DNA of 64,000 bases from Rikenellaceae bacterium (lineage in GTDB: Bacteria > Bacteroidota > Bacteroidia > Bacteroidales > Rikenellaceae). The position numbers were made by a program, and so were the translations under genes. The stretch covers positions 1 through 64,000 of the forward strand of contig SUZB01000002.1 in the NCBI GenBank assembly GCA_015060115.1, given 5' to 3'. The notes beneath the pieces are model-generated. The model searched no databases. It was not told where the DNA came from and worked only from the letters and a program-made list of their open reading frames with translations. Shown piece by piece: positions 2,991 through 51,690 of the stretch. The first letter of the stretch is position 1, and every line of letters starts with the position of its first letter.

Positions 2991-3595
2991 ATAGGACTCG
3001 AAGCGTAGCGCCAAGGGCGCAAGCTCGCGCGGATACCTTAGAAAAAAAAGCGCAGACCAAAGGTCGAGCAATAAATCATTATCACATCCGCGCAACCTGC
3101 CAAATATACTATGCTGGGCACAAATTTAGACTTTGGCGGAATTGCGTAGCAATTGGTTGATGATGTGGGACATCGTGAGCTTGCTCAAACGATTGCACAC
3201 ATCAGCAACATTAGGCTGTGAAACAGCCCCGCCAAAGTCAAACACAGCACAAAAAAAAGACCGACTTCAAAAAAGTCAGCCTTTGTGCCCAGGATAGGAC
3301 TCGAAGCGTAGCGCCAAGGGCGCAAGCTCGCGCGGATACCTTAGAAAAAAAGCGCAGACCAAAGGTCGAGCAATAAATCGCTATCATATCCGCGCAACCT
3401 GCCAAATATACTATGCTGGGCACAAATTTAGACTTTGGCGGAATTGCGTAGCAATTGGTTGATGATGTGGGACATCGTGAGCTTGCTCAAACGATTGCAC
3501 ACATCAGCAACATTAGGCTGTGAAACAGCCCCGCCAAAGTCAAGCTCAGCACAAAAAAAAGACCGACTTCAAAAAAGTCAGCCTTTGTGCCCAGG
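2991..3595 (-). repeat. two tandem ~302/303 bp units, each carrying the 3' end of tRNA-Leu and a structured domain
   Basis: 2991-3293 and 3294-3595 nearly identical; unit boundary ataggactcgaa recurs at 2991, 3294 and inside tRNA-Leu at 3596. Confidence 0.93.
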
Positions 3596-3669
3596 ATAGG
3601 ACTCGAACCTACATGCCGTTAAGCACTCGCACCTGAAACGAGCGCGTCTACCATTTCGCCACCTGGGCA
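3588..3669 (-). tRNA. tRNA-Leu (CAG)
   Basis: reverse complement TGCCCAGGTGGCGAAATGGTAGACGCGCTCGTTTCAGGTGCGAGTGCTTAACGGCATGTAGGTTCGAGTCCTATCCTGGGCA; acceptor TGCCCAG/CTGGGCA, loop TTCAGGT. Confidence 0.93.
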
Positions 3670-9330: not shown

Positions 9331-9410
9331 AGTCGTAAGTTTTAAGTTCTTAGCAAAGATACTAAAAAAATAGGAGATAGCAATGGGGAGTCAGAAATTG
9401 GGGTGGGCTT

Positions 9411-9446
9411 GGGTATTTTGGGTACTTTGGGTACTATGGGTATTTT
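9411..9446 (+). repeat. 9-bp tandem array GGGTAYTWT x4
   Basis: GGGTATTTT|GGGTACTTT|GGGTACTAT|GGGTATTTT. Confidence 0.85.
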
Positions 9447-14133: not shown

Positions 14134-14165
14134 AAGGCGCAGACCTGTAGCGCAGGCTACTTAGA

Positions 14166-14201
14166 GGGGCAAAAGGGGTATAAGGGGTATAAGGGGCACA
14201 T
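14166..14201 (+). repeat. 9-bp tandem array GGGGNANAA x4 (four G4 tracts, 5-nt loops)
   Basis: GGGGCAAAA|GGGGTATAA|GGGGTATAA|GGGGCACAT. Confidence 0.85.
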
Positions 14202-14229: not shown

Positions 14230-14360
14230 TAATTTGTTGTCAGAGTGGGTCTAATTTGGTCTATCGCAAAAATCCCGACGATGGGCTGTACTTGGTGGTA
14301 CTGCTCATTGTCGGGACTTTTTGGGATGGGCCGAAGGAGGCCCACTATCACAACAAATTA
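14230..14360 (-). repeat. 131-bp stop-codon-associated long-palindrome element (copy A, aspA)
   Basis: TAATTTGTTGT...ACAACAAATTA termini; nested complementary arms; final TTA is the aspA stop on the minus strand. Confidence 0.85.
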
Positions 14361-16626: not shown

Positions 16627-16745
16627 ATTTTTAAGACCGATAAGACCGTAAGACTTTAAGACCATTACGAGGTCGAGTATCAAAAAATCCTACTTGTCCT
16701 AATCGTCTTACTTGTCCTAAAAATTCTAACAACTAAAAACTAAAA
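16627..16745 (-). repeat. nested 9-bp-iterated palindrome with core TGATACTCGACCTCGTAATGG
   Basis: minus strand: GGACAAGTA AGACGATTA GGACAAGTA ... core ... GGTCTTAAA GTCTTAC GGTCTTATC GGTCTTAAA. Confidence 0.8.
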
Positions 16746-32491: not shown

Positions 32492-32540
32492 GCTAAAAAA
32501 CAGCGGATGGAAAATTTTCCATCCGCTGTTTTTTTAGCTT
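32492..32540. terminator. near-perfect palindromic Rho-independent terminator
   Basis: AGCTAAAAAACAGCGGATGGAAAA/TTTTCCATCCGCTGTTTTTTTAGCT. Confidence 0.88.
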
Positions 32541-32692
32541 TTAGTTTTTAGTTGTTAGATTTTTTAGGACAAGTAGGACTGGTAAGACGAGTAGGACAAG
32601 TAGGATTTGTTTGATACCCGACCTCGTAATGGTCATAAAGTCTTAAAGTCTTATCGGTCTTAAAAATCTCTAAAAACTAACAACTAATAGCT
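32541..32692 (+). repeat. nested 9-bp-iterated palindrome with core TGATACCCGACCTCGT
   Basis: GGACAAGTA GGACTGGTA AGACGAGTA GGACAAGTA - core 32613-32628 - GGTCATAAA GTCTTAAA GTCTTATC GGTCTTAAA, flanked by TTAGTTGTTAG/CTAACAACTAA. Confidence 0.83.
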
Positions 32693-37787: not shown

Positions 37788-37830
37788 CAAAAGAGCGAAT
37801 GGGAACGAGTCTATCCCATTCGCTCTTTTT
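37788..37830. terminator. Rho-independent terminator
   Basis: AAAAGAGCGAATGGGAACGAGTCTATCCCATTCGCTCTTTTTT. Confidence 0.8.
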
Positions 37831-38033
37831 TAGTTGTTAGTTTTTAGTTGTTAGTTGTTAGAGAGCAGGCGTTAAGCCTGTGGGTTGAAGCGCCTCGTTG
37901 AGACGCAGAGCTTAAACTCCATGAGACTGTGGGAAAGACGAGAGAGACGAGAGAGACGAGAGAGACAACAACGAAGTCTGGTATCATCTTTCACTGTGGT
38001 CTCTGTGGTCTCTGTGGTCTCTGTGGTCTTTTC
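37831..38033 (-). repeat. 9-bp-iterated inverted arrays (GACGAGAGA x3 / GGTCTCTGT x3+)
   Basis: 37937-37966 and 37998-38033 with central GTCTGGTATCATC; preceded by TTAGTTG heptamers and two small hairpins. Confidence 0.82.
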
Positions 38034-38063
38034 ACCCGATTTAGCGTCAAAAGTGCGTGAGCC

Positions 38064-38204
38064 TAATTTCTTGTCAGAAGGGGTCTAATTTGGTCTCGAC
38101 ACGAAGAAGCCCGGATGGGCTGTACTTGGCGTACTGCTCATTCGGGCTTCTGACTGAGAGGCCGAAGTAGACCCCTTATCACAAGAAATTATCACAAGAA
38201 ATTA
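38064..38204 (-). repeat. 128-bp stop-codon-associated palindrome (copy B, rny) plus a 13-bp end duplication
   Basis: TAATTTCTTGT...ACAAGAAATTA (38064-38191) then TCACAAGAAATTA; last TTA is the rny stop. Confidence 0.85.
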
Positions 38205-39731
38205 CTTCGCATAAGATACCGACCTTGTCTCTCGTATCACCGTAATCTTCACCTGGCCGGGATAGGTCATCTCGTCCTGAATCTTCTTGGCAATATCGTG
38301 TGATAGTGCCTCAGACTCCTGATCAGAGAGCTTGTCTGCACCAACGATTACGCGGAGCTCACGACCCGCCTGAATAGCGTAGGTCTTGATAACGCCGGGG
38401 TATGAGAGGGCGATACCCTCCATCTCCTTGAGACGCTTGATGTACGACTCTACAACCTCGCGGCGAGCACCGGGACGAGCACCAGAGATAGCATCGCACA
38501 CCTGAATGATAGGCGCGATAAGCGATGTCATCTCGATCTCATCGTGGTGAGCACCTACGGCGTTGCATACCTCAGGCTTCTCCTTATACTTCTCGGCAAG
38601 CTTCATACCGATAATTGCGTGTGGCAATTCGGGCTCATCATCGGGCACCTTGCCTATATCGTGCAACAGACCTGCACGGCGTGCCGCCTTGGGATTGAGG
38701 CCGAGCTCGGCAGCCATAATACCTGCGAGGTTTGCAGTCTCGCGGGCGTGCTGCAAGAGGTTCTGACCATATGACGAGCGGTACTTCATCTTACCGATAA
38801 GGCGGATAAGCTCAGGGTGTAGACCGTGAATACCGAGGTCGATGGTGGTGCGCTTACCTACCTCGACAATCTCCTCCTCGATCTGCTTCTTGACCTTGGC
38901 TACAACCTCCTCGATGCGTGCGGGGTGGATACGGCCATCGGTAACGAGCTGGTGGAGAGCAAGGCGAGCAATCTCACGGCGTACAGGATCGAAGCCAGAG
39001 AGGATGATAGCCTCAGGGGTGTCATCAACGATAATCTCGATGCCCGTAGCGGCCTCCAAGGCGCGGATGTTACGACCCTCACGGCCGATGATGCGACCCT
39101 TGACCTCGTCAGACTCGATGTTGAATACCGTAACGGCATTCTCGATAGCGGTCTCTGTCGCCACACGCTGGATAGATGCTACGACGATGCGCTTTGCCTC
39201 CTTCGTTGCCGAGAGCTTAGCCTCCTCGATAGTCTCTGCGATGTAGGCTGCGGCATCTGCCTTAGCCTCGTTCTTCATATTCTCGATAAGAATGTTCTTG
39301 GCATCCTCCGAGCTCATACCCGAAATCTGCTCCAAGCGAGCATTCTGCTCCTTGATAACTGCTGCAAGCTCCTCCTTGCGCGACTCTACGCTCTGGAACT
39401 GTGCCTCAAGCTGCTCCTTGCGCTTGTCGTAGTCCTGCGCCCTCTTCTCCAAGTCGCGCTCCTTGTGCTGAAGGTTGGCCTCAAGCTGCTTGGCACGCTG
39501 CTCGCTCTGCTGAAGCTTCTGGTTGCGCTCGTTCACCTGGCGATCGTGGTCGCTCTTAAGCTGAATGAACTTCTCCTTGGCCTGCAACATCTTCTCTTTC
39601 TTTATCATTTCGCCATCGGCCTCTGCCTGTGCGACAATGGCCTTAGCGCGTGCACGGGCAGCCATAAAGGCGGCAACTGCGCCTACTACTGCACCTACCA
39701 CCACGCCGACGATTATTAAGGTAATGTCCAT
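38202..39731 (-). CDS. rny: ribonuclease Y
   Basis: TM + coiled-coil; KH region [33 protein letters not shown] motif HDIGK. Confidence 0.96.
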
Positions 39732-51411: not shown

Positions 51412-51492
51412 TTTTTCAAAGTCGTTTATTTCAAACTGCAAATATAATAATATTTGCCCGATTAACGACAAGAAAAGGAGAAAATTGTAAAA

Positions 51493-51690
51493 GTTGTTAG
51501 TTTTTAGTTGTTAGTTTAAGACAAGCAAGACGATAGGACGATAAGACAAGTAAGACGATAAGAAAAATTGTGATACCCGACCTCGTATGGTCTTAAGGTC
51601 TTAAGGTCCTAAGGTCTTATCGGTCTTAAAAATCTCTGCGCTCGAAACGAGCGCAACTCTAACAACTAACAACTAACAACTAACAGCTCA
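51493..51690 (+). repeat. nested 7-bp/9-bp-iterated palindrome with core TGATACCCGACCTCGT
   Basis: TTAGTTG heptamers, AAGACAAGC/AAGACGATA arm, core 51571-51586, GGTCTTAA arm, GCGCTCGAAACGAGCGC hairpin, CTAACAA x4. Confidence 0.85.

Follow-up and report, generated by a model that had tools for sequence, protein, structure and literature searches.

The window analysed here, a stretch of 64,000 nucleotides from a Rikenellaceae bacterium, carries a short intergenic element between a gene at 38202-39731 that we take, from our own reading, to be rny-like and an open reading frame (ORF) of 880 aa. In this element, a core is enclosed by two inverted arms of tandem 9-bp units (Table 1). The period-9 arrays that a preliminary description had noted on both sides of the centre are read directly from the sequence and are reported by TRF with 100% matches at 37936-37966 (3.4 copies) and 37994-38029 (4.0 copies). 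The centre, which had been said to resemble a common core, is in reverse complement (TGATACCAGACTTCGTTGTT) an exact minus-strand match to the core pattern TGATACCNGACNTCGT. Given this minus-strand orientation of the core, the left arm of that description is the core's downstream arm. The pairing proposed between GAGAC and GTCTC is borne out by the predicted RNA fold of the plus strand (-51.1 kcal/mol, z -5.5, equalled by 0 of 200 shuffles), the minus strand reaching -36.9 kcal/mol (z -3.6); the predicted structure consists of stems of about 6 bp with internal loops of 2-3 nt between them. The window contains three further elements, assigned to a family here called A, while the element under study belongs to family B (GAGAC/GTCTC, 9 bp). 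RNA folds of the A elements have z values of -3.8 to -5.5, and mean values per family and strand range from -2.7 to -3.9. When the molecules were folded as single-stranded DNA, the A element gave a significant z of -4.6, and the B element a non-significant z of -1.35.

Table 1. Positions of the repeat modules within the window.
Feature	Position	Strand	Description
Dispersed block	37820..38191		7-mer array, small hairpins, B element and P element; ~370 bp, 76-82% identity to other genome sites
7-bp array TTAGTTG	37827..37861		Outer module of the block (TRF)
Left array (core's downstream arm)	37937..37966	+	GACGAGAGA x3 + GAC (x3.3), perfect; minus-strand reading, GTCTCTCTC array
Core TGATACCAGACTTCGT, B family	37971..37986	-	Followed by TGTTGTC on the minus strand
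Right array (core's upstream arm)	37998..38029	+	GGTCTCTGT x3 + GGTCT (x3.6), perfect; minus-strand reading, ACAGAGACC array
P element	38064..38191		~127-bp near-perfect hairpin with terminal inverted repeats TAATTTCTTGT...ACAAGAAATTA; adjoins the B copy
A-family element	16628..16718	-	Core 16667-16682, one mismatch to the core pattern
A-family element	32560..32668	+	Core 32612-32627
A-family element	51515..51632	+	Core 51571-51586

Multi-module blocks of 350-480 bp, such as the one that holds the B element, recur with unique flanks, and their P-bearing end is sharp. The P element folds with a z of -13, its end pattern has 70 matches in the genome and it occurs in several relatives; a second copy lies in the window at 14230-14360. 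The 7-bp arrays of TTAGTTG or its complement, which form the outer inverted modules of many elements, are also found in the window at 2847-2897, 32530-32567, 51492-51516 and 51659-51685.

Throughout the assembly searched (1.96 Mb, 94% complete), the core pattern has 205 matches (99+106) at no more than 2 mismatches, 102 of them exact, vs 12 (5+7) and 0, respectively, for a reversed-pattern control. Elements were sampled from stretches, i.e., about 100 places with an exact core and their neighbours, and are not an exhaustive set. They share an architecture in which a core of ~16 bp stands between inverted arms built of 8-9-bp units in tandem, and they are frequently nested with further repeat modules; array periods in these stretches, chosen as they were around elements, are almost only 7, 8 and 9 (127, 116 and 123 of 393). 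Nearly all sampled copies (46/47) fall outside ORFs of at least 110 aa, and 15 of 45 occupy intervals between convergent genes, as compared with 6 of 43 background gene pairs, the numbers being small and the background taken from the window only. When 84,980 species genomes were scanned for the B core, all matches lay in metagenome-assembled genomes (MAGs) titled Alistipes sp. that came from ruminant hindgut (roe deer, water deer, sheep, yak and water buffalo). Judging by these relatives, the genome of the window is itself probably an Alistipes-like MAG of the ruminant gut. Sampling of 36 congeners showed exact cores in 3, and that of 24 species from other families of the order showed none; some further species of the genus also carry them. 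As for viruses, the B pattern had no match in viral contigs, and the A-core matches found there (L131-L134) were rejected as chance occurrences in apparent phage coding sequence, with no adjoining arrays.

The setting of the copies, close to the ends of genes and in convergent intervals, together with good folds in both directions, is what would be expected of an RNA hairpin at mRNA 3' ends, acting in termination or stability in a REP-like manner, with box pairing kept by selection. We nevertheless regard such a role as quite unlikely, given that compensatory covariation is absent inside the families, that one arm is absent from some copies and that A arms are followed by A-runs, not T-runs. 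The only Rfam matches that the window gave at gathering score were tRNAs and a cobalamin riboswitch, and the element matches no known structured RNA in that collection.

The two families differ in their arms. On the one hand, family A has upstream boxes AAGAC or AGGAC at 8-9 bp and downstream boxes GTCTT or GTCCT, mostly at 8 bp, around the core GACCTCGT followed by A; its copies have inverted arms and end in TTTTTAAGAC...GTCTTAAAAA, but the outer limits differ from copy to copy. On the other hand, family B has GAGAC upstream and GTCTC downstream, both at 9 bp, around the core GACTTCGT followed by TGT. Of 149 classified elements from 12 genomes, 147 have the same box type on both sides (98 A/A and 49 B/B), and 2 are mixed. 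One mixed element (L003) is a misclassification due to flanking sequence, and the other (L027) is tandemly duplicated, a B-like stretch lying upstream of an A arm. This agreement, along with further matched pairs in relatives, supports, at the level of families, the proposal that unit sequences differ on both arms as matched pairs while geometry and core are kept. Another 17 classified elements lack a recognisable left arm, so not every copy depends on a full hairpin.

The boxes are short and conserved, and the spacers between them are variable (2-4 nt). It is conceivable, if unlikely, that the arms are rows of sites for a single DNA-binding protein, mirrored about the core, in which case arm types would follow the specificity of the protein and pairing would be incidental. 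Besides the short boxes and variable spacers, the absence of box covariation in A and the dispensable left arm, next to a downstream arm that nearly always holds 3-5 units, would fit such arrays. However, the coexistence of A and B in the same genomes would call for two proteins or one of broad specificity, no candidate protein was identified, and both strands fold significantly better than shuffles, although mirrored sites would do so too.

Whether the arms of one element match each other beyond what their family dictates was assessed from the energy of the duplex that an upstream arm forms with a downstream arm, own pairs being compared with arms shuffled among copies. Within families, own and shuffled pairs were alike: -25.7 vs -25.9 kcal/mol in 91 elements of family A (p=0.74), -29.7 vs -29.9 kcal/mol in 22 B elements of the window's own genome (p=0.60), and -28.1 vs -28.8 kcal/mol in 31 B elements of relatives (p=0.90). 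With A and B pooled, own pairs were the stronger (-26.5 vs -24.8 kcal/mol, p<1e-4), and when the arms of eight representatives, of which some are related, were permuted, the matched pairing ranked 82 of 40,320; as elements share descent, this rank and the agreement of box types overstate the number of independent events. The variants AAGAC/AGGAC and GTCTT/GTCCT of the A boxes do not covary (Spearman -0.07, p=0.54), and the outer inverted TTAGTTG arrays show no arm-arm coupling either (p=0.55). Coupling at the level of single elements is thus rejected by three tests (duplex shuffles, A box covariation and outer 7-mer arms). The comparison with shuffled pairs that the preliminary description had called for therefore turned out positive between families and negative within A, B and the B elements of relatives: coupling is present between families and absent between copies of one family. 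Since own arms pair no better than shuffled ones and boxes do not covary, nothing indicates that copying between the arms of an element is going on, and the best reading is that arms match as inherited subfamilies, not through copying inside each copy. The inference that some process must homogenise units within an element is accordingly not sustained.

In B, spacers are alike within an arm above chance (left 0.53 vs 0.30, right 0.84 vs 0.43), also in the B elements of relatives (p<=0.006), whereas A spacers are mixed even inside one arm (left 0.13 vs 0.14, right 0.21 vs 0.28), which rules out homogenisation of tandem units as a general rule and leaves unit homogeneity as a property of single arms in B only. 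Slippage that took place ahead of the spread of B sub-lineages suffices as an explanation.

Continuing quasipalindrome correction, by which template switching between hairpin arms would rewrite one arm from the other, has to be weighed against these results. The mechanism is established in E. coli (PMC7202029), and template switching homogenises the arms of inverted repeats (PMC8604942) and creates and maintains hairpins (PMC8794818). The adjoining P hairpins, with compensatory changes at 23 of 41 base pairs (46 copies, several species), are the clearest nearby case of compensated arm change, and one element of a relative (L246, in G017) has its unit types in mirrored order on both arms, inner GAGAGAGCA/TCTGTTGTC and outer GGGAAGATA/TTCCCTATC. 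Both would be in keeping with such correction. However, it predicts coupling at the level of the element, which is absent, and perfect palindromes, whereas spacers of opposite arms remain non-complementary throughout A and B. We consider it very unlikely as the cause of the matching in A and B; template switching could still be the origin of the founders, and it could operate on P.

The element is probably one copy of a dispersed, non-coding and non-autonomous small interspersed repeat of intergenic DNA, BOX- or MITE-like, whose subfamilies are matched by descent. Each family would have started from two arms that were matched and nearly complementary, and would then have spread through the genome by copying. 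Replication slippage may alter the number of units and their sameness within an arm, and the likeness of boxes on both arms may be kept by selection on pairing or by one shared recognising factor. Selection on pairing as the sole cause is weakened by the A boxes, in which A-C mismatches are not avoided. The matched difference between A and B would go back to an event at the founding of the families long ago, which may have been a template switch, and not to continuing homogenisation.

Relatives carry other cores and other arm pairs. In a second species, G075, both arm pairs sit on a core variant of its own, TGATACCCGAGTTTCG, whereas A and B in G000 sit on the core pattern TGATACCNGACNTCGT. The close relative G114 has a different matched pair (GAAGAGACC/TGGTCTCTC) at the site corresponding to window position 16682, and G080 has TGACTGGGAA matched against the reverse complement of TGACTGAGAA. 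Within a species, A and B elements tend to have the same core, whereas arm types recur from one species to another; these observations suggest the core as the best candidate site for a trans-acting factor. The choice between A and B arms recurs in at least two species with different cores, from which it could be argued that some process replaces both arms together; the element would then be a bacterial counterpart of Foldback transposons, with the two minisatellite arms swapped jointly, as matched pairs, around a core that is specific to the species and read in trans, an idea that we find rather improbable. In G114, the site of window position 51571 retains the flanking genes and has a 7-mer array but lacks the A element, and that of position 32612 is occupied by a P element together with an array similar to one A arm. 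These differences at three window sites indicate that intergenic sites turn over quickly; none of the three offers a clean empty site for reading a target-site duplication, and none was tied to the core element there.

In architecture, the element has counterparts among known interspersed repeats. BOX elements of Streptococcus pneumoniae are short, modular, intergenic and non-autonomous, consist of terminal modules plus a tandem array that varies, and resemble it in their predicted stem-loop and their enrichment between convergent genes (PMC3049150). However, the tandem modules of BOX are internal and take little part in the stem, whereas here tandem units make up both stem arms (PMC3049150). 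REP/RAYT systems share the high-copy intergenic hairpin repeats and differ from the present element in that its arms are tandem arrays; such a system was rejected, Y1_Tnp (PF01797) having 0 matches in the 94%-complete genome while control genomes, including E. coli, were positive. Porphyromonas gingivalis belongs to the Bacteroidales, the same order as the source of the window. Its BrickBuilt MITE is likewise intergenic, minisatellite-bearing and species-limited, with long predicted stem loops (PMC4596501). BrickBuilt, however, has a 23-nt unit, one direct array, a leader and a tail, and 19 copies (PMC4596501), whereas the element described here has 8-9-bp units, two inverted arms round a core and about 200 copies. 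Many dispersed non-coding copies are found, as in MITEs; among transposases of the Y1 family, the one covered by the search, none was tied to the core element. Eukaryotic Foldback transposons are larger than this element. Galileo and Tetris (PMC3573991, PMC4079207) resemble it in their inverted arms and internal repetition and differ in being eukaryotic and, for Galileo, in having transposase relatives, whereas the present element is bacterial, about 100 bp long and has no transposase found for it in the search of the Y1 family.

With about 200 copies, two coexisting arm families and the other pairs of relatives, these repeats provide a natural test of how inverted repeats come to match, in which inheritance, selection on pairing, shared recognition and template switching are the candidate causes to be told apart; the data already separate matching at the level of the family from copying at the level of the element. 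The array and core strings were absent from the papers searched, which are a part of the literature, and the families are apparently undescribed. They take up a large part of the intergenic DNA in a lineage of the ruminant gut and may confuse assembly and annotation.

Several neighbouring arrangements were recorded along the way. At about ten sites (L006, L016, L026, L030, L051, L054, L060, L063, L067 and L103), composite A+B elements precede a CTCCCTAAA-type 9-bp array and a P element, the module order being steady while the A arms vary. Arrays of 9 bp that adjoin no core lie in the window at 2902-2939 (TTCCCTACA), 9409-9446 (TTGGGTACT) and 14165-14196 (AGGGGTATA). In G080, an 8-bp array of CGGGACTA with about 28 copies is followed by a 10-bp array of CAGCCGTTCT (L226:18233-18453). 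Finally, a 302-bp tandem duplication (98%) at 2991-3607, beside a tRNA gene, apparently repeats part of the tRNA flank.
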